Source: Candidatus Sumerlaeaceae bacterium
Lineage (GTDB): Bacteria > Sumerlaeota > Sumerlaeia > Sumerlaeales > Sumerlaeaceae
Assembly (NCBI GenBank): GCA_019695055.1
Contig: JAIBAT010000081.1
Location: 1 to 64,000, forward strand
DNA: 64,000 bases
Direction of reading: 5' to 3'
Part shown: in pieces, positions 31,041 to 60,486 of the stretch
Position numbering within the stretch: position 1 is the stretch's first letter
Layout of the letters: each line of letters opens with the position of its first letter
Translations under genes and position numbers: made by a program
Notes under the pieces: generated by a model
Told to the model about the DNA's origin: nothing
Database searches by the model: none
Seen by the model: only the letters and a program-made list of their open reading frames with translations

Positions 31041-31302
31041 ATTCGGGCTCGGAACAATTCTCGTTTTTGGGGTTGACCACGGCCCAGAAAGCAAAGAGGA
31101 AAAGGGTGCGCAAATGAATTAATCAGCCATGCTTGGGGACAGTCCGCGCAACGGGTATTATGCCGGCCGTCTTCTGTCGTCTTGATGTGCGCAAAAGAAG
31201 CACCCAGTCCCACCCGGGGAATTCGCTTTTCCGGGCGGGTATGTTTTGCGTTTGTTTGATTCACACATATTGAAACTCATAGCTCGATTTGAGGGAGAGA
31301 TC

Positions 31303-34300: not shown

Positions 34301-37300
34301 TGCTTGCCGCTTACACCGGCGTGGCTGTCAACGCGCTCACGCCTGTTGCCTCCAATGACGACATCGTGCCCGGCGTCAACGTCCAGAGCCTCACCACCTT
34401 CACCGTCACACTCGGCCAGGTCTTCTATATCGCAGTGGACGGCAAGAATGGCGCGGTCGGCAATGTCGTGCTGAACTTCAAGGCCGAGCCCCTTAACAAT
34501 AACTTCGTGGATCGCCTCACCGTCGCCGGATGCCTCGGCACCACGGTCGGGTATAACACCTGCGCCGACAAGGAAATCGGCGAGCCCAACCACGCGGGCG
34601 TTCCTGGCGGAGTATCTGTCTGGTACCGCTGGGTTGGCGCTACCACCGGCTTCACCACATGGACAGTCTCAGGCGTCGGCTTCTCGCCCGTCATCGCTGT
34701 TTACACAGGTGCCTCCGTCGGCGCACTGACCCCGGTCACCAGCACCAACCCCGGCTATCCGGGCGTGCCGGTCCAGATCGCCTTCAACTGCATCAAGGGC
34801 GTCGAGTACCAGATCGCCATTGATTCCGTCACGGGCCTTCCCGGCACCAGCTTCCAGGTGCAGTGGCAGACCCAAACCGGCAACGATGACTTTTTCCGCG
34901 CCAAGGATCTCCAACCGGTTTGCAATGGCACCACCGTTAGCGACAACGTCTGCGCCAGCAAGCAGCCCGGCGAACCCAACCACGCCGGCAACCCCGGCGG
35001 CAGCTCCGTCTGGTTCCGTTGGGTTGCCCCGGTCACGGACTTCGTGACCTTCAGCACAGCCGGTAGCAGCTTTGACACGCTTTTGGGTGTCTACCACGGC
35101 AGCCAGGTCAACCTGCTCATCCAGGATGCCGCCAACGATGACGCCGGCCCCGGCGGCACGAGTCAGGTGACATTCAAGGCCACAAGCGGCTTCGTTTATT
35201 ATGTTGCTGTGGACGGCAAGAACAACGCCACCGGCGACATCAATATTTCGTGGAACTCCGAGCCGGGCAATGACGATCTTAACAATCGCCAGCTCCTGAC
35301 AGGTTGCAGCGGCGGCCCCATCAATGCCTCCAACGCCTGCGCCAGCAAGGAACCCATGGAACCCAACCACGCAGGCAATGCGGGCGGCGGCTCCTTGTGG
35401 TATGAATGGGAATCCACCACCAGCGGGACGGCGGTCTTCAGCACCCTCGGTAGCAACTTCGACACGCTGCTCGCGGTATACTCCGGCACCGACTACTTCA
35501 CGCTTACGCCAACTGTTTCCAATGACAATGACGCTGCCCTTCTTACCAGCCGCGTCAGCTTCCCGGTTCAGCCCGGCCAGCGCTATGTCATCGCCGTGGA
35601 CGGCAAGAACAACGCCCGTGGCAACATCGTGCTGACCTTCACCAGTGGGCCCGACAACAATAACTTTGCCAACGCCTTCAACGTGGTCCCACCATGCGTC
35701 GGGACCATGACGGCCACCAACCTCTGCGGCACCAAGGAACCCGGTGAACCGGTACACGCCGGAAACGCAGGCGGGGCATCCGTCTGGTTCCGCTGGACCT
35801 CACCAGTCACAGACACTGTGACCTTCGACACTAATGGCAGCGGCATCGATACCTTGCTCGGCGTTTACACGGGTCTCTCCGTGGGCGCCCTGACTCAGGT
35901 TGCCGCCAACGACGACTTCCTGCCACTCGTCACCAGCCGCGTGCAGTTCGCAGCTCAGGCCGGATTCATCTACTACATTGCCGTGGACGGCAAGAATGGC
36001 GCGACGGGCAACATCCAGCTCTCTTGGAACGCCTCCGCCGTGAACGACGACTTTGTCAACCGCACGGCCATCGCCAACTGCTTCGGTCAGGCCACCGGCT
36101 CCAACGGGTGCGCCACCAAGGAACCGGGCGAGCCCAACCACGGCGGCAACGCTGGCGGCGGTTCGCTCTGGTTCGCATGGACCGCCCCCCAGAACGGCAT
36201 CGTGACGTTCGATACCTTCACCAGCAACTTCGACACCCTGCTCGCCGCCTACACCGGCAACTCGGTTGGCGCCCTGACCCTCATCACCCAGAATGACGAT
36301 GCGGGGCCCGGCGGCACCAGCCAGATCTCGTTCATCGCGACGGCCGGCACCGTGTACAACATCGCCATCGACGGAAAGAACAACGTCCGTGGTGCATTCG
36401 TTCTGAACTGGGTCAGCCCACCGTCCAACGACAACCTCGTAAACGCATCATTGATCCCGGGTTGCTCAATCACCACCAGCACCAGCAATTCCTGCGCAAC
36501 CAAGGAAGTAAATGAGCCTAACCACGCGGGCAACGCGGGCGGCGCCTCGGTCTGGTACACATGGACCGCACCCGGCTCCGACTCCGTGACAATTGACACC
36601 ATCGGTAGCGGCATCGACACCCTCCTTGCCGTCTATACGAGTGTCGGTCCGAGCATCAACACGCTCGTCCCGATCATCTCCAACGACGATATCGTCGCGC
36701 CGCTCACCAGCCGCGTGGTCTTTAACGCGGTTCAGGGCACCCAGTACTTCATCGCCGTGGATGGCAAGAACGGCGCGCGCGGCAGCATCGTGCTTAACCT
36801 CTCATCGGTCCGTCCGAACGACTTCTTCGCAACGCGCCAGTTGCTCGATGGGTGCAATCTGCAGACCACCGCCTCGACCACTTGCGCCACGAAGGAACCG
36901 GGCGAGCCAAACCATGCGGGTAATGCTGGCGGCGCATCGCTCTGGTACACCTGGACATCGGTCACCAGTTCGACGGTCATTATCAACACCAACGGCAGCA
37001 ACTTCGATACGATCCTCGGTGTTTACACCGGCAACGCGGTCAACGCGCTGACCCCGGTCGCGTCGGACAATAACAGTGGCGCCGACAACATCGACAGCCG
37101 CGTCAGCTTCCTGTCCGGCCCGAACACCGTGTATCAGATCGCCGTGGACGGCTTTAACGGCGCCACGGGCAACATGGTGCTCAACATCATCAGCGCACCC
37201 GACAACAACGACCTCACCAGTGCCTCGCTGGTTGTGGGCTGCTCGGGAACCACCTTCACCAGCAACGGCTGCGCAACCAAGGAGAACAACGAACCCAACC

Positions 37301-39732
37301 ACGGCGGCAACGCCGGAGGCGCCAGCATCTGGTTCGCTTGGACCTCTCCGGTGAGCGACAGCGTCACGTTCGACACGGCAGGCAGCGCTATTGATACACT
37401 GCTGGCCGTCTACACAAGCGTTGGCCCGGCCATCGGCACACTAAACCTTGTCGCCCAGAACGACGACGCTTTGCCCGGTGGACTTAGCCGCGTAACGTAC
37501 ACGGCCATCGCGGGGACCACCTACTACATAGCCGTGGACGGTAAGAACGGAGCCACCGGCAACGTGGCCCTGAACTGGTCCGGCGTTCGTCCGAACGACT
37601 TCTTCGTGAACAGCCAGTTGGTGACAGGTTGCAGCATTGTAACCACCGCCTCCTCCACCTGTGCCACAAAGGACACCGGCGAGCCCAACCATGCTGGTAA
37701 TGCGGGCGGTGCATCGCTCTGGTATACATGGACCTCGGAAACGACGGGCGTGGTCACCATCACGACCGATGGTAGCGACTTCGACACGCTGCTCGGTGTT
37801 TACACCGGCAACGCGGTCAACTCGCTAACCTCCATCGCCCAGGATGACGACAGTGGCGGTCTCGGCTCCGGCCCGACCAGCAAGGTCGTCTTTAACACGG
37901 TTCCGGGTGTCACTTACCGCATCGCCGTAGACGGCAAGAACGGCGTCACCGGCAACATGACGCTCTCGATCCGCCTCCAGCCGGCTAACAACGACTTGGC
38001 CAATGCACCGACGATCACCGGCTGCTTCGGCACCGTGACCACCATCTCAACCTGTGCCACCAAGGAACCCGGTGAACCCAACCACGGCGGCAATGCTGGC
38101 GGCTCCTCCATCTGGTTCAAGTGGACTTCGCCGACTTCCGACATCGTGACCTTTGATACCCTCGGCAGCAGCTTCGACACACTGCTGGCGGTTTACACCA
38201 GCGTCGGGCCGTCCATCGCGACCCTCCAGCTCGTGAAGGAAAACGACGACGACCTGCCGAACACCACCAGCAAGGTTACCTTCACGGCGGCTCAGGCCAC
38301 GACCTACTACATCGCCATCGACGGCAAGAACGGCGCATCGGGCAGCGCGCGCCTGAACTGGTCCGCGGTTCGCAGTAACGACCTGTTCATCAACCGTCTG
38401 CCGCTTTCCGGCTGCGTTGCTATCACGACAGCGTCGACTACCTGCGCAACAGCGGAAACCAGCGAGCCGGATCATGTAACATCGGCGGCCGCTTCACTTT
38501 GGTACACGTGGACTGCGCCTACCAGCGGAACAGTCTACATCGACACCGCAGGCAGCAACTTCGACACGGTCCTGTCCGTCTATACTGGCCCGGGTCTGAC
38601 GTCGCTGACGCTCGTTCAGGAAAACGACAACGATAACAGTCCAGGTGCCACCACCAGCAGCGTAGCAATCGCGGCGGCAACTGGCACGGTTTATCAGATT
38701 GCCGTAGATGGTGCAGGGGGCGCGACAGGTGACATGGTGCTCAACATCGCCCAGTCGCCGGACAATGACGACCGCGAGGACGCAACATCGGTGTCTGCAT
38801 TCTGGTTAAACCCGAGCGGTGAAAACGAAGGCACGACTTGCGGTACCAACGTTTGTGCAACATTGCAGACTCCGGAAGCGGGTGGCCATCCGACAGGCAA
38901 TCCTGGCGGGGCTTCAGTATGGTGGACTTGGGTGGCTCCGAACACGGGACCGACAACAGGTGTTGTGACGTTTGACACCGTGGGAAGCAACTTCGACACA
39001 CTGATCGCTGTTTACGACTCGATACTGCAGGGTGCGAATGACAACATTCCACAAACCAACACAGTGACCAGTCGTATCAGTATTGTATGGATCGCCGGAC
39101 GCGAGTATAACATCTCGGTCGATGGCAAGAACGGAGCCCAGGGCGGTATTACGCTTAATTGGCACCTTGGGTTTGGACCGAACTACAATATCCTTCCTGC
39201 ACCAAACGACATGTTCAGTGCAGCGCTGGGTACATCGTTCACATTAATCGGTGCTTCAGGTGAGACCACAGGTAGCAATATCGCCTCTACGGTCGAAATC
39301 GGGGAGCCAATCCATGCCGGCGTTACAACCCCTGTTACTTCCAGTACGGTTACCTGTGATGGCAGCACGGTTATCGGAACGAACCACACGGTATGGTTCA
39401 ATTGGACCTGTCCGTTGCCCGATGGAATCCAAGGTGTGGTGACCTTCGAAACCGAGCGCGATGCGCAGTTCCCATTTGATACGGTGTTGGCCATCTACAC
39501 CGGTGATGCAGTCAATGCGCTGATTCCGATATCGTCGAACAACGATAATCCGCAGGGAGATCCGTTGCCACTCGATAGTCGGATTACCTTTGTGGTTACC
39601 GGTGCTCAGAACTACAAGGTCGTTGTGTCTGGCTTTGATACCGGCAAGTTCCTACTGCGGTGGTACATCACGCCTTCAGGGTTCAAAGCCGGGTCGGGAA
39701 CTGCCAAGACTGCGGATGCGGAGTTGAATTAG
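31303..39732 (+). CDS. Giant secreted subtilase-like protein with CARDB domain and 15 beta-sandwich repeats
   Basis: 2809 residues. A signal peptide occupies about 1-33. The ATG at 31303 follows gagggagaga and is preferred to the upstream in-frame start. A subtilisin-fold peptidase domain (about 185-660) has D192 in I-I-S-D-T, oxyanion N328 in A-A-G-N-F, and S620 in G-T-S-A-S-A-P-H. Where HGTH should stand is E-G-A-A (E247), so the His is replaced by Glu, as in S53-like enzymes. A CARDB-like domain follows (about 696-808). Fifteen repeats of about 112-133 residues then fill the rest, each with N-D-x-F, a Cys pair, E-P-x-H-A-G-N-A-G-G, S-V-W-Y-x-W-T, F-D-T-L-L-A-V-Y-T-G and A-V-D-G-K-N-G. It probably acts outside the cell in protein breakdown or adhesion. 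Confidence 0.92.
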   Translation: MGRRTFGYGVRGVLATLTAIHMAFGVAVAPAQPSQAVLRQLDTKVAGPNAVPGARKLSDKLIDLDRKIQSRTATAKSFAAAQKLMASKDGRLLIEVVATKVDDALLSKLQVKGIEVRDSYPDQGTVYLLVSDVSPLYDILSIEEIGLIRPVEQPARLRAGSVDSRGDRAVNATSLYPKGITGAGQKVGIISDTFAWTSSVRSDETQPALGLPGTLVNANNQKSGDLPPTVQLVRDDGGFYQPPATDEGAAMGEIVYDVAPDADLAFHTAWGGQSVFADGIKKLRSAGCTVIVDDIIYFAEPVYQDGIIAREAANAVKAGIPYFSAAGNFGNSAVEQTYKEFKYPANVTLPDTVKNSFHDFGSGSPFLPISLKAGDSITVVLQWNQPFWSVNPVNPPTAKNGAQVDLDLFLTSTPDPAGLSNPILLSKQGQGFPGLPYGDPIETFSFVAGYTGLYYISIPHWVGPIANIPQIKGAPLTFRLLLLGAPVGSIAGIPDDTSAYGASTIWGHSLASGAAAIGAVPWWEHPLFNPNGFPPTNLIDPEKFSAKGGSLTVFFDSTGRGTKRSIYAPLVAAPDGVNTTFFGISDAAAGSADFSKPTGPRLPLGYANEPDGLPNFFGTSASAPHAAAVGALMKSMKSTLKPAQINTTLQNTAIDAKGRRAAVGQDPVTGFGVINAGAAVTQVAQGVNVAFARASDWPYSLLVVNDCATTDDKGILDPSLDVFVKFTLINNGSTGIVKPFNTQILVDGVIVTTIVTPSLASGATSPQCYNIGPLAAGPHTIQVITDSSNVARETNEKDNSRVRSVNVTEFPDNDNFDEAGYIINCTTLIQGDNFGATKEPGEPTPTGNPGGSSVWYRWTPNFTGEAGIETSGSQMNVIIGVYTGPNVGSLTEVAAGVGSLKFPVVSGTEYFILIDGVNGATGVFFLRLASPSNDFFDTPGDFGNACFGTTITQTTICTTKETGEPNHAGNAGGHSVWYKWTSPTNGKVTFDTIGSNFDTLLAAYTGVAVNALTPVASNDDIVPGVNVQSLTTFTVTLGQVFYIAVDGKNGAVGNVVLNFKAEPLNNNFVDRLTVAGCLGTTVGYNTCADKEIGEPNHAGVPGGVSVWYRWVGATTGFTTWTVSGVGFSPVIAVYTGASVGALTPVTSTNPGYPGVPVQIAFNCIKGVEYQIAIDSVTGLPGTSFQVQWQTQTGNDDFFRAKDLQPVCNGTTVSDNVCASKQPGEPNHAGNPGGSSVWFRWVAPVTDFVTFSTAGSSFDTLLGVYHGSQVNLLIQDAANDDAGPGGTSQVTFKATSGFVYYVAVDGKNNATGDINISWNSEPGNDDLNNRQLLTGCSGGPINASNACASKEPMEPNHAGNAGGGSLWYEWESTTSGTAVFSTLGSNFDTLLAVYSGTDYFTLTPTVSNDNDAALLTSRVSFPVQPGQRYVIAVDGKNNARGNIVLTFTSGPDNNNFANAFNVVPPCVGTMTATNLCGTKEPGEPVHAGNAGGASVWFRWTSPVTDTVTFDTNGSGIDTLLGVYTGLSVGALTQVAANDDFLPLVTSRVQFAAQAGFIYYIAVDGKNGATGNIQLSWNASAVNDDFVNRTAIANCFGQATGSNGCATKEPGEPNHGGNAGGGSLWFAWTAPQNGIVTFDTFTSNFDTLLAAYTGNSVGALTLITQNDDAGPGGTSQISFIATAGTVYNIAIDGKNNVRGAFVLNWVSPPSNDNLVNASLIPGCSITTSTSNSCATKEVNEPNHAGNAGGASVWYTWTAPGSDSVTIDTIGSGIDTLLAVYTSVGPSINTLVPIISNDDIVAPLTSRVVFNAVQGTQYFIAVDGKNGARGSIVLNLSSVRPNDFFATRQLLDGCNLQTTASTTCATKEPGEPNHAGNAGGASLWYTWTSVTSSTVIINTNGSNFDTILGVYTGNAVNALTPVASDNNSGADNIDSRVSFLSGPNTVYQIAVDGFNGATGNMVLNIISAPDNNDLTSASLVVGCSGTTFTSNGCATKENNEPNHGGNAGGASIWFAWTSPVSDSVTFDTAGSAIDTLLAVYTSVGPAIGTLNLVAQNDDALPGGLSRVTYTAIAGTTYYIAVDGKNGATGNVALNWSGVRPNDFFVNSQLVTGCSIVTTASSTCATKDTGEPNHAGNAGGASLWYTWTSETTGVVTITTDGSDFDTLLGVYTGNAVNSLTSIAQDDDSGGLGSGPTSKVVFNTVPGVTYRIAVDGKNGVTGNMTLSIRLQPANNDLANAPTITGCFGTVTTISTCATKEPGEPNHGGNAGGSSIWFKWTSPTSDIVTFDTLGSSFDTLLAVYTSVGPSIATLQLVKENDDDLPNTTSKVTFTAAQATTYYIAIDGKNGASGSARLNWSAVRSNDLFINRLPLSGCVAITTASTTCATAETSEPDHVTSAAASLWYTWTAPTSGTVYIDTAGSNFDTVLSVYTGPGLTSLTLVQENDNDNSPGATTSSVAIAAATGTVYQIAVDGAGGATGDMVLNIAQSPDNDDREDATSVSAFWLNPSGENEGTTCGTNVCATLQTPEAGGHPTGNPGGASVWWTWVAPNTGPTTGVVTFDTVGSNFDTLIAVYDSILQGANDNIPQTNTVTSRISIVWIAGREYNISVDGKNGAQGGITLNWHLGFGPNYNILPAPNDMFSAALGTSFTLIGASGETTGSNIASTVEIGEPIHAGVTTPVTSSTVTCDGSTVIGTNHTVWFNWTCPLPDGIQGVVTFETERDAQFPFDTVLAIYTGDAVNALIPISSNNDNPQGDPLPLDSRITFVVTGAQNYKVVVSGFDTGKFLLRWYITPSGFKAGSGTAKTADAELN
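33733..39681 (+). repeat. Fifteen tandem coding repeats (about 340-400 bp each) in the giant subtilase
   Basis: Repeat units start at the N-D-x-F motif and end after the G-N-x-x-L-N-W strand. Units 2-12 keep the block E-P-N-H-[AG]-G-N-A-G-G-x-S-x-W; units 13-15 are more diverged. Each of units 2-13 has one Cys before and one after the short G-T-x-T-x-x-x segment, which could form a disulfide. The units resemble PPC-like beta-sandwich repeats of secreted proteins. Confidence 0.9.
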
Positions 39733-43588: not shown

Positions 43589-43799
43589 TTTCACTGCATG
43601 CGGAGCGCGCCCCCGCGACCAATCGGCACCCCGGAGAATCATTAAACAAATGTTCTAACAAGCAAGCGTCTTTCTGGAAAAACTGGGATGTTATATGAGG
43701 CACATACACCATACGCGCAAACCATTACGCAAAGCCACCAACGGCTATTCAGCTTCCCCCCGAAAGCTCACCGCAGCCCACGTTCCCGGCGGTTCCTCC

Positions 43800-43831
43800 A
43801 ATTCAGAATTCAGAATTCAAAATTCAGAATT
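43800..43831. repeat. AATTCAGA short tandem array upstream of mfd
   Basis: Four units of aattcaga, one altered to aattcaaa, lie about 260 bases upstream of the mfd start. It matches the array at the other end of the gene (40024-40052). Confidence 0.75.
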
Positions 43832-43934
43832 GCCCCGCTGGCACAAGCGGCGCGGCCCTGAATATCCCCTAGGCAAAACCATAGGAAATCACGCGCCACC
43901 GCCCCCCCTCAACGGGCCTGTGGCGTCACAACCC

Positions 43935-44024
43935 GGAGAGGTGGCCGAGTGGTTGAAGGCGCTCGCCTCGAAAGCGAGTTTACCTGCAAGGGTAACCAGG
44001 GTTCGAATCCCTGCCTCTCCGCCA
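43935..44024 (+). tRNA. tRNA-Ser (anticodon CGA)
   Basis: The acceptor arms ggagagg (43935-43941) and cctctcc (44014-44020) pair perfectly. The anticodon stem ctcgc/gcgag encloses loop ctCGAaa, with CGA at 43969-43971. A long variable arm is present, as expected for serine, and the T-arm carries ggttcgaatcc. Discriminator G is followed by an encoded CCA. It reads codon UCG. It lies 108 bases upstream of the encapsulin gene. Confidence 0.97.
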
Positions 44025-44132: not shown

Positions 44133-45536
44133 ATGACGACTCAAAGTTTGAACACGCAAACTGCGAGAAACCTTGCGAACACAACCAAAACCCCGCCTCA
44201 GATGGCAGCCATCACGCCAAGGTGGCTTCTGCGATTTCTCCCGTGGGTAAATGTTGAATCTGGAACCTATCGTGTTAACCGGGTGCGCGTGGTCAGCCAG
44301 CGCGCTGGCCGGGTTCCCATCATTTATGATGCCGAACGGACTGAGGTTTACCCGGAGGGATTGACGGTGATCCCCCTTTTTGCAGATACGCCCGAGGACT
44401 TCCGCCTGGCCTTGCGCGAGAGTTTCACGGCGGAGACCTTTGAACGTGGCAAATTGATCGTTGAAGAAGGGAAGCCGAGCGACAAACTCTATATTGTTTC
44501 CCGCGGCAAGGCGGACGTATTCCTGGGTGGAGAATACGGCGAAACTCTTCGGAAAAGGGTCGCTGTGTCCGGAGATTACTTCGGCGCCGAGCAGCTTTTC
44601 GTGGACGGCAGGTCTCCAATCTCCGTAAAGGCAATGACCGCCTGCTCCGTGCTGGTGCTGACTAAAAAGTCCCTCAAGAAGGCCCTGGATAAATTCCCCG
44701 GAATCCGTGCTGAATTTGAAAAGTCCGCCAAGGACAAGATCAAGCAATGCGGTTACGGGAAACCCGGCTGGGGAACCAACTCCCTGCAAATGCAGGCCGG
44801 TCATGAGGGTGAGCCGGAACTGCCGGAAATGTTTGTAGATTATGACGCGCGTCCCCGCGAGTATCCGCTCAGCCTGGTGCAGACCATTGTCCGTTTGCAC
44901 ACCCGTGTATCAGACCTCTACAATGTACCCATAAATCAGCTCCGCGAGCAGGTGCGTTTAACCATTGAGGGCATGAAGGAGGCGCAGGAATGGCAGATGA
45001 TCAACAATGCGGAGTTTGGCCTGCTCCGATCGGCCCACAGCTCCATGCGCATTCCCTCCCGAAAGGGCCCTCCGACCCCGGATGATCTCGATGATCTGCT
45101 GTCGCTGGTTTGGAAAAAGCCCAGTTTCTTTCTGGCGCATCCCGAGGCCGCTGCCGCGTTTGGGCGGGAATGCACCCGGCGCGGTGTTCCGCCTCCCACC
45201 GTTCAAATGCATGGCGCATCGTTCCTGACGTGGCGGGGTGTGCCGATCGTCCCATGTGACAAGCTGGAACTAACGGATAATCCGGATGCTCCCGGACGGC
45301 GGACCAACATTCTCCTTGTTCGCGCAGGCGAGGCCGAGCAGGGAGTGGTCGGTCTTCATCAGTTGAATGTGCCCAATGAAGTCCAGCCAAGCCTCTCCAT
45401 GAGGACCATGGGAGTGGACCGCAAGGCCATCGCCTCATATCTGCTCTCGCTTTACTTCTCCTGTGCGGCCCTTGTGGATGACTCCCTTGGGGTTTTGGAA
45501 AACGTGCAGGTCGATTATTACCATGACTATGCGTGA
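44133..45536 (+). CDS. Family 2 encapsulin shell protein with inserted cyclic-nucleotide-binding-like domain (2B type)
   Basis: 467 residues. The N-terminal arm carries the family 2 hallmark T-P-R-W-L-L-R-F-L-P-W-V (28-39), then Y-R-V-N-R. Residues about 78-205 form a cNMP-binding/CRP-like domain, with F-E-R-G-K-L-I-V-E-E-G-K-P-S-D-K-L-Y (103-120) and a phosphate-cassette region F-G-A-E-Q-L-F-V-D-G-R (150-160). Residues about 235-467 match the HK97-fold part, with Y-P-L-S-L-V-Q, D-L-Y-N-V-P and W-R-G-V-P-I-V-P-C-D-K-L. Such proteins self-assemble into protein shells in the cytosol. The ATG at 44133 is preceded by aggag; the in-frame GTG at 44103 is less likely. Its 3' end overlaps the cysteine desulfurase gene by 14 bases, so that enzyme is the likely cargo. 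Confidence 0.93.
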   Translation: MTTQSLNTQTARNLANTTKTPPQMAAITPRWLLRFLPWVNVESGTYRVNRVRVVSQRAGRVPIIYDAERTEVYPEGLTVIPLFADTPEDFRLALRESFTAETFERGKLIVEEGKPSDKLYIVSRGKADVFLGGEYGETLRKRVAVSGDYFGAEQLFVDGRSPISVKAMTACSVLVLTKKSLKKALDKFPGIRAEFEKSAKDKIKQCGYGKPGWGTNSLQMQAGHEGEPELPEMFVDYDARPREYPLSLVQTIVRLHTRVSDLYNVPINQLREQVRLTIEGMKEAQEWQMINNAEFGLLRSAHSSMRIPSRKGPPTPDDLDDLLSLVWKKPSFFLAHPEAAAAFGRECTRRGVPPPTVQMHGASFLTWRGVPIVPCDKLELTDNPDAPGRRTNILLVRAGEAEQGVVGLHQLNVPNEVQPSLSMRTMGVDRKAIASYLLSLYFSCAALVDDSLGVLENVQVDYYHDYA

Positions 45537-47199
45537 GATCCCGGGCGACGCGGAAAGCGCCGCCCCTGCGGCAATGGCCGAACAGGCACTGCCGGATTTC
45601 TCCAATCCCCAGGCGGCACTGGATTTTTTTCGCACGGCCGCTGGTGACGGCAACGCACCGTTTGGGGAAGGGGTGCCACCTGGATCAACTACGTTCGCTT
45701 CCCAATTTCCCGCCGTGATGCATGGCGGGGATGGCGAAGCCCTTGCGCAGGAACTGCGCGCAATGCTGCGCGCCGATCCGTCGATGGTACCATCCATCGG
45801 TCCCTCGTGGCAACCACCGTCCGCCGGACAGCCACCACTGGAGATAGGAAACAGCCTGCTGGATGGTGTCGGGGATGTCCCCAGGGGACTTGCCATGCCG
45901 CTTACCCCGGGAAATCTCACGACCCGGTATGCGCCCAATTCCTCAGACAGCGATCCGGCTTCTGCGTCAGTATCACCAGCCCAGGCCGGGTTTGACGTTG
46001 CCGCGGTCCGGCGGGATTTTCCCGCACTTCACCAGCAGGTCAATGGCAAGCCCCTCATCTGGCTCGACAATGCCGCCACGACCCACAAACCCCAGTGCGT
46101 CATCGATGCCGTCTCACAGTTTTTTGCCCGCGATAACTCAAACATCCATCGCGCAGCCCATACGCTGGCTGCGCGTGCCACCGATGCCTACGAGACCGCC
46201 CGCCAGAAAGTGCAGGTGTTTCTTGGGGCCGCCTCCCCCAATGAAGTTGTATTCACGCGCGGTACCACCGAGGCCATAAATCTGGTTGCCCAGACGTATG
46301 GCCGCCAACACGTGGCCGCGGGCGACGAGATTCTCATTACCACGCTCGAGCACCATGCCAACATTGTGCCCTGGCAGATGCTCGCCCAGGAGAAGAACGC
46401 CATACTTCGTGTGGTTCCCATCACCGAAGCCGGAGATGTCAGCCTGGCCGATGTGGCGGCAAACCTGAGCCGCCGAACCAGGATCGTCGCCATCAGCCAC
46501 GTTTCGAATGTTTTGGGAACGGTCCTCCCCGTCTCACAGATTGCTGCCCTTGCCCACACCGTCGGAGCCGTCGTGCTCGTGGATGGGGCGCAGGCTGTGG
46601 CCCATGTGCCCGTAAATGTCCGTATGATCGATGCGGACTTCTACGTATTTTCAGGGCACAAGATATTCGCCCCAACCGCAGTCGGTGTCCTATACGGACG
46701 AGAGCAACTCCTGCGGGAAATGCCCCCGTGGCAGGGGGGCGGCAACATGATCGACACAGTCACCTTCGAGAAGACCACCTACAGCCCTCCACCTGCCAAG
46801 TTTGAGGCGGGAACCGGCGTCCTGGCCGAGGCTGTTGGCTTGGGAGCTGCATTGGAATACCTTGGCCGGATCGGCATGGAGTCACTGGCCGCCTATGAAC
46901 ACTATCTGGCGGATTACGGCATGGCGGTTTTATCCACCATTCCAGGGTTGAGGATGATTGGTACTGTACCTGGGAAAGTGGGAGTATTTTCTTTCGTAAT
47001 GGATGGGGTCCCTGCCACCGAAGTAGGGCAGCTGCTAGACCTTGAGGGGATTGCCGTCCGGTCCGGCCACCACTGTGCTCAGCCGACCATGGCGCGTTAT
47101 GGTGTACCGGCCACCGTGCGACCATCGGTGGCCTTTTACAATACGACAGCCGAAATCGACAAATTGGCCGAGGTCGTTCGTAATATAAAGGTTCATTGA
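45523..47199 (+). CDS. SufS-type cysteine desulfurase with disordered N-terminal extension; probable encapsulin cargo
   Basis: 558 residues. The catalytic part (157-558) is a class-V aminotransferase-fold PLP enzyme that removes sulfur from cysteine as a protein-bound persulfide. The PLP lysine is K380 in S-G-H-K-I-F-A, the catalytic Cys is C518 in R-S-G-H-H-C-A-Q-P, and T-L-E-H-H-A-N-I-V-P-W and F-E-A-G-T are intact. Residues 1-156 form an extra segment rich in Ala, Pro, Gly and Ser, with helical islands such as N-P-Q-A-A-L-D-F-F and A-L-A-Q-E-L-R-A-M-L. Ordinary SufS lacks it; cargo desulfurases of family 2 encapsulins carry comparable extensions for loading. ATG at 45523 lies within the encapsulin gene, a translationally coupled start. 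It converges with the next gene, overlapping it by 7 bases. Confidence 0.93.
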   Translation: MTMREIPGDAESAAPAAMAEQALPDFSNPQAALDFFRTAAGDGNAPFGEGVPPGSTTFASQFPAVMHGGDGEALAQELRAMLRADPSMVPSIGPSWQPPSAGQPPLEIGNSLLDGVGDVPRGLAMPLTPGNLTTRYAPNSSDSDPASASVSPAQAGFDVAAVRRDFPALHQQVNGKPLIWLDNAATTHKPQCVIDAVSQFFARDNSNIHRAAHTLAARATDAYETARQKVQVFLGAASPNEVVFTRGTTEAINLVAQTYGRQHVAAGDEILITTLEHHANIVPWQMLAQEKNAILRVVPITEAGDVSLADVAANLSRRTRIVAISHVSNVLGTVLPVSQIAALAHTVGAVVLVDGAQAVAHVPVNVRMIDADFYVFSGHKIFAPTAVGVLYGREQLLREMPPWQGGGNMIDTVTFEKTTYSPPPAKFEAGTGVLAEAVGLGAALEYLGRIGMESLAAYEHYLADYGMAVLSTIPGLRMIGTVPGKVGVFSFVMDGVPATEVGQLLDLEGIAVRSGHHCAQPTMARYGVPATVRPSVAFYNTTAEIDKLAEVVRNIKVH

Positions 47200-48746: not shown

Positions 48747-51700
48747 TCATTTCCCCCCGCCGGAAATCACCGACTCGCGCTCCGTGTCACTGTGCGCAAT
48801 AATCGGAACCGCCACACTGATGGTGCCTCCGGCAGCCAGCGTCGCCGTGGCAGTGTAGTTCCCCGGCACCAGGCCCCTCGCTGCAAAGGCGCCATTCTTG
48901 TCGGTCTTGCCATCCCGGGGTTTCTCCACGGAGCTGCCATCGTCCGGAGTCAGCTTCACGGCAAGCCCCACCGCCGGAGAGTTGTCCTCGTTACGGATCG
49001 TCCATTTCATGGAACCGGCCTCGTACAGCACGTCATCGATCTTCTCCGTCTTGCCCGACGAGATCTCAACCGTGTGGGAGTTTGCTGAGAACCCAAACGC
49101 ACTGACCTCCACCTGATAGGTAGCCGGCGGGATGTTTGTGATGGTCATGATACCATCGTCTCCGCGCCGGGCCGTGTGCCGAATCTGACCCTCTGGCCCG
49201 ACCAGATAACACCAGGCGGACGGAACAGGCTGGCCGTTTGACAGGTTTAGGGCCGTTGAAACCAGTGTGCCTCCGTTGGCTTCCAGCACGAGCCTGACCG
49301 GCGGGTGCTCGCTTCCCTCTACAACATTGACCGTTGTGGCTGGGCTCAGCCCTATGCCCTCCTTGCTGGCGCTTACAGCGTAGCTCCCGGCGGTAATGGA
49401 CTCAAAAATAAATCTTCCATCGTCACCCGACCTGGAGCTGTTGATCCTCCTGCCAAGGTTTATGTCGTCCGCCACGCCTTGCGGGTTCGCAGCCACAGAG
49501 ACAATTGCACCGGCCACCCCCGCACCAGATGAATCGACAACTATACCTGAAAGTTGTCCTGTCTGCACAGTCAGGGTGATTTCGGTCGTCTTCTCCGCTT
49601 CTACATCCACCAAGGTTTGCGCGTTCCCATACCCGACACTGCCGACATAAACCAACCATTTTCCCGGAGCCAGATTTTCAAATTTCGCGATACCCTCCAT
49701 ATTGCAGGCTTTGGACGAAGCTGACAGATTGCCCGTTTGCCGTGGGGTCATGGTAACTCTTGAGTACGGCACCGGTTTTCCGCTTCGCATTACCGTGGCA
49801 TTCAGTTGTCCCGTCCCAACTCTAAGTGTTACCTGTTTCGTTTCCCCGGAAGTAATAAGGACAGTGGTTATTACGCCCTTTGTCGGGCATTCCAGTCGGC
49901 AGGACCCGGGCTGCAGGTTCTCAAACCGAAAGCTCCCGGTGGCATCCGTTTTAGCCTGGCGTGGTTTTGCCTGATTCGTGGAAGAGTCCTGGGTGGCGAC
50001 CACCTGAACTTCAGGGACTGGTTGGTCCCCCGGCGATTGAAGCACTTTGCCTTCAAGGCTTCCCAAGACTGAGAGAACAATGTCCCCCACGTCGGCATCG
50101 AGTCCCGGCTCAACGGTTACATCCCGAGTTACAGGCGCAAGCTTCTCCCCGGGTTTTGCAACCACGGCGCCCGACGATGGCGGCACATTCGGAATCTGGA
50201 AGCGACCATCTGCGTCCGAGGTCGCCTTTCCTACGGACTCTCTATTTCCGTATTCTCGATAGTTTCTGTCATCGTAGTAGGAAACAGCAATTGAACCCAC
50301 CGGGTTCCCTTTGTTGTCCACGGTTCGCCCCACAACGGTGGTGGGTTGCCCCATTTTATACGTCTTTTCAACATTGCTGGAGTCTCGCTGATACATTGGT
50401 AGGGTTGTACGGAGTTTTGCATATCCCGGCGATTCAATGGTCATCCCACTTCCATTGTTCATGCGTTGATTCAGTTTTACGCTAAAAGTTCCGGGATGCT
50501 CCGCGTCCTTCTCCACTCCCTCAACGCCCGAAACGGTAAAATCAGCAATGGGCACATTGGTCTTGGCGTCTACCACATGCCCGACAAATTTGACTTCCTT
50601 TATTTCCTCCAACACGAAGTCGACATTGTCCTGATCCAACTGGACACCCACCTTGTTCCCACTGCGGACATCGGTCGGGACGTAGACGCCCATATTAAAG
50701 GTGCCGCCCTCTGCCAACTTTTCAATTCTATATCTTCCCTTCTCATCGGTCGTAGCGAATCCAGAGCTTGCCATTTCGGCCCCATTCATTCGCGTGGCAT
50801 ACACTTGGGCTCCCTTGACTGGGTTGCCACTCTTGTCCTTTACGGATCCCGCGATGTAGTGCCCCTTTCGAAGCGTCAGTTTCACATCGGTCTTCGCTTC
50901 GCCCGGCTTCAAATTGACGATCAAGGGCTTGCTTCCAGCCATCTGCTCTTTTGACGCCGAAAACTGCAAATCCCGACCGGATGGCAAATTGGGAATCGAA
51001 AAACTTCCGTCGGCCCCTGACTGAAGCCCTGTGACAACGCTGTCGAAAGCATTGCCCAATTCCGCGAAATCTGCAATCATCCAGCCGGAAACGGCGGCAT
51101 TGGCCACGGAATTGCCATCCGAGTCGACCACTGACCCAGCGATTGATCCAGCCCCAGGAATCTTCACGATTACACCCGTGACCGACTCATCCGCAATCTG
51201 GATGAGATCGGAAAGCCCCAGCGGCAGATTCGGCGCGCTTGCCTTTACACGGAGTTTACTGTTGGGGAGGACATTCAGCGTAAAGTCACCCCCGGGTTTG
51301 ATGGGGGCGCTTCGTCCAGACCCCGCATAATTGTCGGGCCTCCATGCGCTAACTGTTCCGCCAGGGACTGGAACCGCAGCGTCAGTCTGGACGATTCCCG
51401 ACACCGTGAGTGCCTTTTGGAGTCTTATTTCCGTATAAGCCTCAAACTTGTTTGGCTCGAAGCGTACCACTCCATTCCCGGATCGCTGATTCGACGACCT
51501 GTCCTGCAGGTACCCCTCCATCTCGGCAGTCAGAACGGCCGCCCCGCGGGCAAAAACGGACTCCAGTTTGAAACGACCATTGGCATCCGTCAGGGTCCCA
51601 CCCCTTGCATCGCCGGAAGGATTTGCCCGCCCGTGAAAGACTTTCACGCCGCCCAGCGGAGTACTCGTGGCTTTGTCACTGACGAGGCCCTCAACCGTGT

Positions 51701-52844
51701 AACCGCCATAAAGGAATAGCGAGACCCCGCTTGTCGTCTCTTTTTCCGCCAATCGGACAATGGGATAGGGCTCGTTTGACCTCTCATAAAAGAGCTCCAG
51801 GGGCTTCTTCTCAGGTTTGAGACCGAACTCACCGGCGGGCAAACGGTCGAATCTAAACACGCCCTTATCATCTGTTGTGGTGGTGCGTGGTTTCAAATCG
51901 GGCAGTGAGAATCTGTAACCGGGATTCAGAATCACAGACACCGTGGCGCTTGTGACGTTCTGATCGGTCTCCTTCTGGCGAACCGTTCCCTCGATGGCGC
52001 TTCCCGCCCGCGCCAGTTTCAAAACCAATCCCTCGACAGGTGCCGTCGCTTCCTGGCTGAGGAGCACGTAGTCCGGCTGATCGGCCACCAAAAGTAGGGA
52101 GCCGGACCCCATCTCATCGAGCGCGAACGTTCCATCTGCCGTGGAGGTCGTGAATTCGTTGACCGGGGAAAATAGGTCCCGGGCTTGGCTGGATGGGCCG
52201 GTGGGCAGTGCGGCAGTGGCGATGATCGGCGTGCCCGGCACCGGTTGATCTGTGTCATTCACAACTTTGCCAGTGATGCGGGCCGCAAGGTTTAGCGTGA
52301 ACGCCCTGATGATCTGCCGCGATGGCCCGAGCGTCTGGAATTGGGGCATATCCTCCCGCAAAATTACAGAAGTCTGGACGCCGATCAGGCCCGGTTTCCG
52401 AACAGAAATCGTGAACTCGGCACCCTCTGGCAGGGAAAGGGCGAAGGCACCCCTGTCATTGGTATCCGGACAGCTTACTGACGTCAGGTTATAACCGGCT
52501 GTCCGATAGTCCGTCTTCTGAACCTTGATATTCGCCCCGCCTACGGCTTGGCCTGTCTGATCCCGCACGGTTCCAAGGAATACTACTCGCGGGCTTGTCG
52601 ATCCCGGATCCACATCAAACGGTTTCAGCGTATCCGGCGACGAAGTGACGAGAGTTCCCCGATTACGGGTGGTGGGGGAGGGCTTGCCTTCGCCAAGCGA
52701 CGTGATTCGCGCCTTGTCCTTGGGATCGGCCCCCTTGTTTCGTCCGGAGGATTCCGCCGGCCGTCGCCCGCATCCAGCGGCCACCACCAGCGCCGTGATG
52801 ATGCAAACAGCCCAGCGAATTCTGGCGAATCTCCGACCCCTCAT
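48747..52844 (-). CDS. Large lipoprotein with about 14 carboxypeptidase-regulatory-like repeats
   Basis: 1365 residues. The signal peptide ends in a lipobox V-A-A-G-C (Cys about residue 24), so LspA would process it and the protein would be lipid-anchored. After a polar linker come about 14 transthyretin-like CarboxypepD-regulatory modules of about 80-95 residues, each opening with a strand like I-A-G-S-V-x-D-x-x-G-x-P-V-x-G-A-x-V and containing T-D-x-x-G-x-F-x-[FI]. No catalytic domain is visible. Such proteins are envelope scaffolds or bind carbohydrates and proteins. The ATG at 52844 has a ggag site upstream and leaves R-G-R-R-F before the hydrophobic core; the ATG six codons earlier is also possible. 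Confidence 0.88.
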   Translation of the reverse strand: MRGRRFARIRWAVCIITALVVAAGCGRRPAESSGRNKGADPKDKARITSLGEGKPSPTTRNRGTLVTSSPDTLKPFDVDPGSTSPRVVFLGTVRDQTGQAVGGANIKVQKTDYRTAGYNLTSVSCPDTNDRGAFALSLPEGAEFTISVRKPGLIGVQTSVILREDMPQFQTLGPSRQIIRAFTLNLAARITGKVVNDTDQPVPGTPIIATAALPTGPSSQARDLFSPVNEFTTSTADGTFALDEMGSGSLLLVADQPDYVLLSQEATAPVEGLVLKLARAGSAIEGTVRQKETDQNVTSATVSVILNPGYRFSLPDLKPRTTTTDDKGVFRFDRLPAGEFGLKPEKKPLELFYERSNEPYPIVRLAEKETTSGVSLFLYGGYTVEGLVSDKATSTPLGGVKVFHGRANPSGDARGGTLTDANGRFKLESVFARGAAVLTAEMEGYLQDRSSNQRSGNGVVRFEPNKFEAYTEIRLQKALTVSGIVQTDAAVPVPGGTVSAWRPDNYAGSGRSAPIKPGGDFTLNVLPNSKLRVKASAPNLPLGLSDLIQIADESVTGVIVKIPGAGSIAGSVVDSDGNSVANAAVSGWMIADFAELGNAFDSVVTGLQSGADGSFSIPNLPSGRDLQFSASKEQMAGSKPLIVNLKPGEAKTDVKLTLRKGHYIAGSVKDKSGNPVKGAQVYATRMNGAEMASSGFATTDEKGRYRIEKLAEGGTFNMGVYVPTDVRSGNKVGVQLDQDNVDFVLEEIKEVKFVGHVVDAKTNVPIADFTVSGVEGVEKDAEHPGTFSVKLNQRMNNGSGMTIESPGYAKLRTTLPMYQRDSSNVEKTYKMGQPTTVVGRTVDNKGNPVGSIAVSYYDDRNYREYGNRESVGKATSDADGRFQIPNVPPSSGAVVAKPGEKLAPVTRDVTVEPGLDADVGDIVLSVLGSLEGKVLQSPGDQPVPEVQVVATQDSSTNQAKPRQAKTDATGSFRFENLQPGSCRLECPTKGVITTVLITSGETKQVTLRVGTGQLNATVMRSGKPVPYSRVTMTPRQTGNLSASSKACNMEGIAKFENLAPGKWLVYVGSVGYGNAQTLVDVEAEKTTEITLTVQTGQLSGIVVDSSGAGVAGAIVSVAANPQGVADDINLGRRINSSRSGDDGRFIFESITAGSYAVSASKEGIGLSPATTVNVVEGSEHPPVRLVLEANGGTLVSTALNLSNGQPVPSAWCYLVGPEGQIRHTARRGDDGIMTITNIPPATYQVEVSAFGFSANSHTVEISSGKTEKIDDVLYEAGSMKWTIRNEDNSPAVGLAVKLTPDDGSSVEKPRDGKTDKNGAFAARGLVPGNYTATATLAAGGTISVAVPIIAHSDTERESVISGGGK

Positions 52845-52967
52845 TGAAGCCCGCTCCCTCACTCAGGTCAAGAACCCGTGACAAAATGACGCCATGCCAT
52901 TCGGACGGGCAACCGTTCAGCGTATGGTGGTTTCTGTCAATGCGTTTTGCGAGAAACGCCCTTTGAA

Positions 52968-53534: not shown

Positions 53535-54779
53535 TTGTTGGATTTTAAGGCCATTCGGGCCGAAGCAAAGAAGCACGAGAAGGCCATGGTGAAGTTCCTG
53601 CGCGACATGGTCGCCATCCCGTCCGAAAGCGGGCAGGAGAAGAAGGTCATCGAGCGCATCAAGCAGGAGATGAAGAAGACCGGCGCCTACGACAAGATTT
53701 GGACCGACAAGCTCGGCAACCTGCTGGCCCGCATCGGCACCGGCCCGCGCGTCATCGCCATCGACGCCCACGTCGACACCGTCGGTGTCGGCACCCGCAG
53801 CGAATGGAAGCACGACCCCTACAAGGGCAAGGTTTCCCAGGGAATGGTCTGGGGCCGCGGCGCTGGCGACCAGGAAGGCGCCATCCCCGCCATGGTTTAT
53901 GCCGGCAAGATCATCAAGGACCTCGGCCTGAAAAGCAAGGAATGGTCCCTCCTACTCACCTGCACCGTTATGGAAGAGGATTGCGACGGCCTTTGCTGGC
54001 AGTATATCGTAAAGGAAGACAAGATTCGCCCCGAGGCCGTCGTCGTGACCGATTCGACGAACTGCACCATCCTCCGCGGTCAGCGCGGACGCATGGAAAT
54101 CGGCGTTCGCACCACCGGCAAGTCCTGCCACGGATCCATGCCCCACAAGGGCGTGAACGCCGTTTACAAGATCGCCAAGGTCATCAACGAGATCGAGAAG
54201 CTCAACGACCGCCTGCGCGATGACAAGTTCCTCGGCAAAGCCACCATCACGGTTTCCTATGTGGATTGCCAGACACCCAGCATGTGCGCGGTCCCCGGAT
54301 CGGCCTTCATCCACCTGGATCGCCGCCTCACCACGGGCGATACCAAGGAATCGGCCCTCGCAGAGGTTCGCGACGCCGTGAAGCGCGCCGGTGTCGATGC
54401 CACTGTCGAGCTGCTCAAGTACGCCGTGCCCAGCTACACTGGTCTCACGTACCCCACCGATAAGTTCTTCCCAACCTGGGTTTTCGACGAGGATGCCCCC
54501 CAGGTGGCCGCTGCTGTCGACACGCACACCAAGCTGTTCAACCAGAAGCCCGTCGTCAGCCGCTGGACCTTCAGCACCAATGCCGTTTCCATTGCCGGCA
54601 TGTACGGCATTCCCTGCGTGGGCTTTGGTCCCGCCGAGGAAGCCGTCGCCCACACCGTCAATGACCGTGTGCCGATCGAGCACCTCACCCGCTGCGCAGC
54701 ATTCTACGCAGCCTATCCGTCCATCTATTGTGAAAACAACCCCAAGGCCAAGGCCGCCGGGAAGAAGAAGAAGAAGTAA
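53535..54779 (+). CDS. ygeY: M20-family peptidase/deacylase, YgeY type
   Basis: 414 residues. M20 zinc hydrolase; YgeY is the member encoded in selenium/purine-linked clusters with ygeW and ssnA. Metal ligands and catalytic residues are H79 and D81 in D-A-H-V-D-T-V, D112 in G-A-G-D-Q-E-G and E147/E148 in V-M-E-E-D. A further His lies in C-H-G-S-M-P-H of the dimerisation domain. The start is TTG at 53535, placed 6 bases after ggagg. The C-terminus ends in a Lys/Ala stretch unlike most relatives. It probably cleaves an amide or peptide bond in a ureide or amino-acid intermediate; the exact substrate is not known to me. It is followed by ygeW on the same strand. Confidence 0.92.
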   Translation: MLDFKAIRAEAKKHEKAMVKFLRDMVAIPSESGQEKKVIERIKQEMKKTGAYDKIWTDKLGNLLARIGTGPRVIAIDAHVDTVGVGTRSEWKHDPYKGKVSQGMVWGRGAGDQEGAIPAMVYAGKIIKDLGLKSKEWSLLLTCTVMEEDCDGLCWQYIVKEDKIRPEAVVVTDSTNCTILRGQRGRMEIGVRTTGKSCHGSMPHKGVNAVYKIAKVINEIEKLNDRLRDDKFLGKATITVSYVDCQTPSMCAVPGSAFIHLDRRLTTGDTKESALAEVRDAVKRAGVDATVELLKYAVPSYTGLTYPTDKFFPTWVFDEDAPQVAAAVDTHTKLFNQKPVVSRWTFSTNAVSIAGMYGIPCVGFGPAEEAVAHTVNDRVPIEHLTRCAAFYAAYPSIYCENNPKAKAAGKKKKK

Positions 54780-54807
54780 CCACAAACCGCGGCCGGAACG
54801 CAGGAAT

Positions 54808-54846
54808 CGCAGGGAGACAATCTCTGCGCCCTCTGCGCTCCCTGCG
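54808..54846. repeat. Inverted repeat between ygeY and ygeW
   Basis: cgcagggag (54808-54816) pairs with ctccctgcg (54838-54846). The loop contains two copies of ctctgcg, so the whole looks like the simple 'tctgcgccctctgcgctccctgcgg' kind of intergenic filler. It may form an mRNA hairpin between the two genes. Confidence 0.5.
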
Positions 54847-54870
54847 GTTAAATCCCATCGGAGAGAAGAA

Positions 54871-55899
54871 ATGAACCTTAAAGGCAAAGACTACATCGAG
54901 ACGCAGGACTGGACCAAGGCCGAGATCGAGCACCTGCTTGACCTCGCGGACAAGCTGAAGGATGACTTCAAGAATGGTCGTCCCACGCCGCTTCTGCCCA
55001 ACCAGACCGCGTTCCTGCTGTTCTTCGACAAGTCCACCCGAACCCGCAACGCATTCGAGGCTGGCGCCACGCAGCTCGCCGCTCACGCGCACTTCCTGGA
55101 TTCGTCCGCCACACAGATTTCCCACGGCGAGACCCCCAAGGATACCGGCATCATCCTCGGCAGCATGGGCCACGGCATCTGCATCCGTCACGACCTCATC
55201 CCCGGCGCCGGCAATAGCTATATGCGCGAAGTCGCCGACGCCACCGACGTGCCGGTCATCAACATGCAGTGCGACATCGACCACCCCACCCAGACCCTCG
55301 CCGACCTCCAGACCATCCGCGAGATCTTCGGCAAGAACCTCAAGGGCCGCAAGATTGTCGTAAGCTGGGCTTTCGCGCCGTCCTACGCCAAGCCCCTCTC
55401 CGTGCCCCAGGGTCTCATCACCCTCATGCCGCGCTTCGGCCTCGACGTCACGCTGGTTCATCCGCCGGAATATAAGTTGATGCCCAAGTGCATGGAGGAT
55501 GCCCGCAACAACGCGAAGGAAGCCGGGACCAAGTTCGAGCTCACCGACGACATGGACGCCGCTTTCGAGGGTGCCGACATTCTCTATCCCAAGAGCTGGG
55601 GAGCTTTCGACCTCATGTCCCAGCGCCTCGAGCTCAAGACCCAGAAGCAGCTTGCCGACAACGAAGCCGCCTGCCTCGAGCTCAACGCCAAGTACAAGAG
55701 CTGGATCTGCGACGAGCGCCGCATGAAGCTGGCCAAGAAGGAAGCCGTCTACATGCACTGCCTCCCCGCCGACCGCGGCAACGAAGTCACCGACGCCGTC
55801 ATCGATGGGCCCCAGTCAGTCGTCTTCCCCGAAGCCGAGAACCGCCTCCACACAGCCAAGGCCATCATGGCCTCGGTCATGCGTGAGCGGCCGTTCTAA
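54871..55899 (+). CDS. ygeW: Knotted carbamoyltransferase YgeW
   Basis: 342 residues, aspartate/ornithine carbamoyltransferase fold. The carbamoyl-phosphate motif S-T-R-T-R is at 55-59, followed by N-A-F-E-A-G. D-H-P-T-Q-T-L-A-D lies near 131-139 and the C-terminal H-C-L-P-A-D-R-G is intact. YgeW is the catalytically orphan transcarbamylase of anaerobic purine clusters, and its true substrate is unsettled. In the degradative direction it would yield carbamoyl phosphate, which the carbamate kinase at 56723-57715 could use to make ATP. The ATG at 54871 follows ggagagaag. A strong terminator ends this transcript. Confidence 0.94.
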   Translation: MNLKGKDYIETQDWTKAEIEHLLDLADKLKDDFKNGRPTPLLPNQTAFLLFFDKSTRTRNAFEAGATQLAAHAHFLDSSATQISHGETPKDTGIILGSMGHGICIRHDLIPGAGNSYMREVADATDVPVINMQCDIDHPTQTLADLQTIREIFGKNLKGRKIVVSWAFAPSYAKPLSVPQGLITLMPRFGLDVTLVHPPEYKLMPKCMEDARNNAKEAGTKFELTDDMDAAFEGADILYPKSWGAFDLMSQRLELKTQKQLADNEAACLELNAKYKSWICDERRMKLAKKEAVYMHCLPADRGNEVTDAVIDGPQSVVFPEAENRLHTAKAIMASVMRERPF

Positions 55900-55932
55900 A
55901 GGATTGCGCAAAGCGCCACTGAGAAAGACCAA

Positions 55933-55980
55933 GGTGAGGCGTGGCAGAGCGTTCTGTGCCACGCCTCACCAGTTTTTTTT
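55933..55980 (+). terminator. Rho-independent terminator after ygeW
   Basis: A perfect 14-bp stem (ggtgaggcgtggca with tgccacgcctcacc) and 10-base loop are followed by AG and eight T. It separates ygeY-ygeW from the toxin-antitoxin pair. Confidence 0.95.
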
Positions 55981-56050
55981 CCCTGGATCAAATTCTTACT
56001 ATAAAATAAGAAATTGGCAATTTGGTAAGACAAATCAAGGAGTCGTCGAA

Positions 56051-56293
56051 ATGCCCAGTGCAACTCTTACAGTTAAAGGCCAGTTGGTCATTCCTAAGGA
56101 GATTCGGGATCGCCTTGGATTGAAACCAGGGGACAAATTGGATTTCCTTCCTCAGGAGTCGGGTGACATCTTGATGCGCCCGCTTGTGCAGGACGTAAGC
56201 AAATTGCGTGGATTGCTTCGGCGGCCAGGTGCCAAGCCAGTATCCCTTGAGGAAATGGATACCGCTGTTCGAAAGAGGTTTGGACAGAGGTGA
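56051..56293 (+). CDS. AbrB/MazE-type antitoxin
   Basis: 80 residues. The swapped-hairpin DNA-binding domain shows V-K-G-Q-L-V-I-P-K-E-I-R-D-R-L-G-L-K-P-G-D, the standard AbrB/SpoVT signature. The C-terminal tail (about 50-80) would wrap and block the toxin. ATG at 56051 gives the full domain; the frame is open upstream but overlaps the ygeW end and terminator. The stop overlaps the toxin start (GTGA). Such antitoxins usually repress their own promoter. Confidence 0.92.
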   Translation: MPSATLTVKGQLVIPKEIRDRLGLKPGDKLDFLPQESGDILMRPLVQDVSKLRGLLRRPGAKPVSLEEMDTAVRKRFGQR

Positions 56294-56691
56294 ATTTGAC
56301 CGGACTCGATACGAATGTGCTCGTGCGCTACCTTGTCCAAGACGACGCAGCACAGGCCAAAACTGCAACTTCGTTGATTGAAAAGACCTCAAGGCAGGGT
56401 GGCGAATTTGTTGTTAACGCCATCACACTTTGTGAACTGGTGTGGGTTTTGGAATCTGCGTACTCATATTCCAGGGGCCAGGTCTCCCACGCACTTGAAA
56501 ACATTCTGCGCACTGCTCAGTTCGTAATTCCGGATCGCGAATTGGCTGTCGAGTCTCATGCAAGATACCAAAAGGGCCGTGGAGACTTTGCTGACTACTT
56601 CATCTCGTGCTTGAACGATCGACATGGGGCAAAGGTTACGTTGACCTTTGACCGGGCCCTAAAAGGCGATCCGAGGTTTCAGGTTCTGTAA
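56290..56691 (+). CDS. PIN-domain toxin (VapC family)
   Basis: 133 residues. VapC-type RNases cut tRNA or rRNA. Acidic metal ligands are D7 in G-L-D-T-N-V, the Glu in L-C-E-L-V-W-V, D97/D100 region in G-D-F-A-D-Y and D near the end in T-F-D-R-A-L. GTG start at 56290 overlaps the antitoxin stop by four bases, so the pair is translationally coupled. The pair sits between two halves of the ygeW/carbamate kinase cluster and may have inserted there. Confidence 0.93.
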   Translation: MNLTGLDTNVLVRYLVQDDAAQAKTATSLIEKTSRQGGEFVVNAITLCELVWVLESAYSYSRGQVSHALENILRTAQFVIPDRELAVESHARYQKGRGDFADYFISCLNDRHGAKVTLTFDRALKGDPRFQVL

Positions 56692-56722
56692 CGGCTGGGC
56701 TGTCGGGGCCAATTTTTGGCGC

Positions 56723-57715: not shown

Positions 57716-57722
57716 AAAGTGG

Positions 57723-59219: not shown

Positions 59220-59237
59220 TGGAGGCTAAACAGACCG

Positions 59238-60470: not shown

Positions 60471-60486
60471 AGGGGGAGGTGCAATC

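Follow-up and report, generated by a model that had tools for sequence, protein, structure and literature searches.

A family 2B encapsulin operon with a putative cysteine desulfurase cargo in a Candidatus Sumerlaeaceae bacterium

A shell gene and an overlapping desulfurase gene

The window, a 64,000-nucleotide stretch of a Candidatus Sumerlaeaceae bacterium genome (contig JAIBAT010000081.1), carries a two-gene operon that starts approximately 110 bases 3′ of a tRNA-Ser(CGA) gene (Table 1). The first gene is an intact open reading frame with an ATG start codon and an AGGAG sequence upstream; a sigma-70-type promoter sought just 5′ of this gene gave no match. The second gene overlaps the first by 14 nt (45523-45536), as an earlier, sequence-only reading of this DNA had noted.

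Table 1 Coordinates of the encapsulin operon, its encoded domains and the adjacent tRNA gene within the window
Feature	Position	Strand	Basis
tRNA-Ser gene (CGA anticodon) immediately 5′ of the operon, possible insertion point	43935..44024	+	ARAGORN
Family 2B encapsulin shell, 467 aa	44133..45536	+	NF041163; PF19307 and PF00027; full-length match to 2B shells 9bje/9bhu/9bix; Foldseek
Shell N-arm, residues 4-56	44142..44300	+	Aligned to SrpI N-arm (6x8m residues 10-60) and 2B shells
Shell cNMP-type domain, residues 101-187, E-loop insert	44433..44693	+	PF00027; phosphate-binding-cassette alignment
Shell HK97-fold (SrpI-like) part, residues 214-461	44772..45515	+	PF19307, 369.9 bits; 6x8m alignment
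Putative cargo cysteine desulfurase, 558 aa	45523..47199	+	TIGR01979; SufS-domain tree places it with encapsulin cargo
Cargo N-terminal extension, residues 1-155, of low complexity and presumed to serve in loading	45523..45987	+	No family match
SufS-type desulfurase domain, residues 157-556	45991..47190	+	PLP lysine K380 and persulfide cysteine C518 present

The same reading had described the first gene product as a family 2 arm and an HK97 fold with an inserted cNMP-like domain, and had proposed a profile search of the shell protein. This search confirms the domain composition and assigns the protein to family 2B, as NF041163, the NCBIfam model of family 2B shells, matches it with 578.5 bits (cut-off 400), while Pfam places PF19307 (SrpI-like shell) over the core and PF00027 (cNMP-binding; 50.6 bits, cut-off 27.5) between the N-arm and the core. 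The closest solved structures are the 2B shells 9bje, 9bhu and 9bix, which align from end to end with E-values down to 1.6e-129; family 2A shells rank after them and align across the N-arm and core only. An AlphaFold model of the shell, built from 26 sequences, is of low confidence (mean pLDDT 55.7) and was used for domain matching only, with 9bhu (the Streptomyces griseus 2B shell) as the top Foldseek match in the PDB (E 4.4e-29); the fold assignment therefore rests on sequence homology. Judged by these matches, the first gene is an intact family 2B encapsulin shell, and neither the shell matches nor those of the cargo described below are due to chance.

That such a gene should be a decaying or non-assembling HK97 relic, i.e. 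a prophage capsid or a pseudogene, is scarcely credible. Among 40 genomes of its phylum, the window shell is the only 2B shell above cut-off; our shell tree gives it a long branch that joins close to the base of the family 2 shells included, with its placement within 2B not settled, and both observations would suit a relic. However, the frame is full-length and scores far above the 2B cut-off, the protein retains the columns that are invariant in the family, and phage genes were not found among the scanned neighboring ORFs.

The 2B terpene-cyclase shell (9bhu) and the two-component shells (9bje, 9bix) have the same layout as the window shell, with the insert in the E-loop, but carry different cargo. 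The HK97 part of the window shell is 50-55% identical to three terpene-cyclase 2B shells with confirmed cargo (L081-L083), while identity to the full-length shells of 2B desulfurase loci reaches 63%, and in the shell tree these three group together, nested with Actinomycete desulfurase shells (100/96). Relative to SrpI, the family 2A shell of the SrpI/CyD system from Synechococcus elongatus PCC 7942 (PMC8049743; 6x8m), the HK97 part is 59% identical, but SrpI lacks the cNMP-type domain found in the window shell.

Ancestry and N-terminal extension of the desulfurase

The second gene product had been read as a SufS-type desulfurase with an extra N-terminus, and both elements are recovered. TIGR01979 (SufS) matches from about residue 157 to 556 with 548.5 bits (cut-off 475.1), Pfam recognizes a class-V aminotransferase domain, and the PLP lysine K380 and the persulfide cysteine C518 are invariant in 17 cargo proteins. 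The remaining ~155 residues form a low-complexity extension for which neither Pfam nor NCBIfam gives a family match.

The NF041166 model of family 2A cargo was considered as proof of cargo identity and rejected. It scores the window desulfurase at 728.7 bits, below its cut-off of 800, over model positions 213-622 of 623, and does not settle the question, since other SufS proteins from the phylum score as high as 724 bits; a tree of the SufS domain was used instead. In this tree, all encapsulin-associated desulfurases, including that of the window, are split from housekeeping SufS by a 99/99 branch, and the window enzyme falls within the 2B cargo clade (98/95), beside the Planktothrix and Dependentiae enzymes (96/79). 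The genome’s own housekeeping SufS (L091, an open frame of 438 aa) lies outside the cargo group and has no extension. The inability of NF041166 to tell cargo from housekeeping SufS, together with the sub-threshold score, would leave room for a locally recruited housekeeping SufS that adjoins the shell gene by chance and is not cargo, but this is highly unlikely in view of the branch that separates the window enzyme from the genome’s SufS and joins it to 2B cargo, the extension, which is missing from the housekeeping copy, and the overlap of the two genes. The enzyme-domain tree is decisive for cargo ancestry; physical loading is an inference, but the shell almost certainly holds the desulfurase.

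How the enzyme would be loaded is less readily read from its N-terminus. Two motifs, LARLANEFFS and AASPYYFLDG, are present in most 2A cargo; a pattern search found neither in the window extension, which differs in this respect from the SrpI/CyD cargo, and when the extension was scored with a matrix built for the first motif, its top stretch, GDGEALAQELRAM, did not exceed shuffled sequence (p = 0.53). The case for cargo loading therefore comes from context only. The first motif also occurs in Planctomycete, Leptospiraceae, Geobacteraceae, Planktothrix and Methylobacterium bullatum 2B cargo, and the second is seen in 2B cargo as YSFL in Bacteroidota, FYFL in Planktothrix and YYFL in M. bullatum. 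Both motifs are also absent from the Actinomycete 2B cargo proteins L077, L079 and L080, and therefore they do not define the 2B group. Planktothrix sp. PCC 11201 (L008), the nearest tree relative of both the window shell (51% identity) and its desulfurase domain (64%), retains 2A-like motifs in its cargo extension (VATLANQFY and SFYFLS), whereas the window lacks both.

On the shell side, Thr425, which occupies the position of the SrpI cargo-contact residue F262, was considered as a changed cargo site and dropped, as this position varies freely in 2B shells and is mostly Leu. Only Tyr436, the equivalent of SrpI Y273, is near-constant in 2B shells.

The inserted cNMP-type domain

In canonical cyclic-nucleotide sites, such as those of CAP and PKA, a Glu residue contacts the ribose and an Arg residue contacts the phosphate. 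Alignment of the phosphate-binding cassette shows that these ligand contacts are replaced by Ala152 and Ser161 in the window shell. The Planktothrix sp. PCC 11201 shell likewise has Ala at the Glu position, and most 2B relatives retain the Glu and have Ser at the Arg position. One 2B domain that has been tested binds no cyclic nucleotide, and published 2B structures place the cNMP-type domain over the two-fold pores (PMC12407261).

The sequence-only reading had suggested that the shell may respond to a nucleotide, which would make the compartment a sulfur store that opens or closes when a cyclic nucleotide occupies the inserted domain. The PF00027 domain is clearly there, it is the best-predicted region of the shell model, and its location over the pores in the published structures would suit a gate. 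Set against this are the loss of both the ribose- and the phosphate-holding residue, the Ser that most 2B relatives also have at the Arg position, and the non-binding behavior of the tested domain; a nucleotide-responsive shell is therefore quite improbable. The cNMP-type domains of the window shell probably do not bind cyclic nucleotide, and it is more likely that they accept a different ligand or play a structural part above the two-fold pore than that they respond to a nucleotide. A more specific proposal, that the compartment combines an N-terminal loading signal unlike the published ones with a cNMP-type domain repurposed to gate the two-fold pore in response to another small molecule (e.g. 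a sulfur metabolite), seems to us rather unlikely.

Separately, a Rickettsiaceae MAG (L046, positions 875-2284) encodes a divergent 2B-type shell, 35% identical to that of the window, whose cNMP-type domain retains both canonical contacts (FGEMALLEETTRQAT), and this may be a 2B shell that truly binds cyclic nucleotide. The contig, 3.7 kb long, shows no gene for a cargo protein.

Occurrence, origin and proposed role of the operon

Family 2B is defined by the inserted domain, and a 2021 survey lists putative cysteine desulfurase cargo in 1281 family 2A operons and 199 family 2B operons in 9 phyla (PMC8346489); desulfurases are again listed as one type of 2B cargo in PMC12407261. An earlier eLife paper tied 2b shells mainly to terpenoid genes (PMC8049743), in agreement with the statement in the sequence-only reading that the studied 2B shells carry terpene-pathway cargo. 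When the window shell was used in a single scan of GTDB species genomes, 40 relatives were returned, including 36 2B-shell loci (L008-L043). The desulfurase gene lies directly downstream of the shell gene in 34 of the 36; for L037 and L042, the two exceptions, the available sequence stops where the matched shell stretch ends. The hosts of these 2B relatives belong to Cyanobacteriota, Planctomycetota, Spirochaetota, Thermodesulfobacteriota, Bacteroidota and Dependentiae, and a plasmid search adds the same pairing in Kitasatospora sp. NBC_00039, M. bullatum, Streptomyces clavuligerus pSCL4 and Streptomyces sp. BHT-5-2. The view that a 2B shell with a desulfurase is an unusual combination is thus contradicted by the surveyed operons, by the 2B relatives and by their named or cultured hosts. 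The window operon belongs to an already known type of compartment, rare in this lineage, and does not represent a new kind.

Among these systems, the operon of Kitasatospora sp. NBC_00039 (NZ_CP108290.1) resembles that of the window in that its 2B shell gene precedes a gene for a SufS-type desulfurase with an N-terminal extension, and a 14-nt overlap like that of the window is possible there as well as in M. bullatum (2B) and Azospirillum (2A). Known 2B desulfurase operons such as that of Kitasatospora nevertheless differ from the window, as full-length shell identity is only about 45-51%, and the window has no second shell gene, a different, motif-poor extension, and a host phylum in which the system is rare. 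Tandem pairs of shell genes are found in the 2B desulfurase loci L009, L010, L011 and L012, consistent with two-component shells.

The sole occurrence of a 2B shell among the 40 phylum genomes, the adjacency of the operon to tRNA-Ser and the cargo tree together suggest joint lateral gain of shell and cargo, and entry of both into the lineage by horizontal transfer, beside tRNA-Ser, is the most likely origin. Two further genera of the family share the mfd/tRNA-Ser(CGA) neighborhood, and no 2B shell reaches the cut-off in their genomes; past the tRNA, G034 has an unrelated frame of 645 residues. No integrase was found among the scanned ORFs, no repeat of the tRNA 3′ end that could serve as an attachment site occurs elsewhere in the window, and base composition shows no clear step at the operon.

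Several other elements of the window were recorded in passing. A short tandem run of GAATTCA-like units, seen by eye, lies between mfd and tRNA-Ser (43797-43835). Further upstream, a giant open frame of 2828 residues (31246-39732), in which PPC and CARDB are the only recognized domains, probably encodes a secreted or surface protein. Downstream of the operon are a gene for a 1371-residue protein with 12 carboxypeptidase-regulatory-like repeats (48747-52862) and a cluster (53535-61797) encoding a YgeY-type hydrolase, a YgeW-like carbamoyltransferase, a carbamate kinase, two PALP-type PLP enzymes and an SsnA-like aminohydrolase, which resembles a selenium-linked purine or urate breakdown cluster.

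Taken as a whole, the locus is very probably a family 2B encapsulin operon whose cargo is a cysteine desulfurase, the pair likely having been gained as a unit. By analogy with solved relatives, 60 copies of the shell protein would assemble into a T=1 shell about 28 nm wide, with the cNMP-type domains on the outside, over the two-fold pores. The N-terminal extension would take the desulfurase into the lumen, as proposed from solved relatives and family 2A work, cysteine would enter via the pores, and, if the family 2A systems are a guide, the enzyme would turn over faster inside the shell than outside, the freed sulfur being retained inside or passed on. Sulfur storage is a plausible function by homology to family 2A systems; the SrpI/CyD compartment is like that of the window in pairing its shell with a desulfurase that has an N-terminal extension (disordered in SrpI/CyD), and in its connection to sulfur metabolism. 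A cysteine synthase or serine acetyltransferase gene lies near the shell gene in many 2B desulfurase relatives, which ties the system to sulfur metabolism. The same searches found neither serine acetyltransferase nor cysteine synthase A within the window, and no rhodanese was found among the scanned neighboring ORFs. The window operon differs in this from the SrpI locus, which includes cysK, epsC and rhodanese genes, and from that of Planktothrix sp. PCC 11201, which a serine acetyltransferase gene adjoins.

These results correct the idea that desulfurase cargo is confined to shells without a cNMP-type domain, as such cargo is present on both sides of this divide and in many phyla. Because family 2A and family 2B both have desulfurase cargo, matched shells with and without the inserted domain can be compared around the same kind of enzyme, and the 2B operons with this cargo, those of Kitasatospora and S. 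clavuligerus among them, offer a direct route to the role of the inserted domain.
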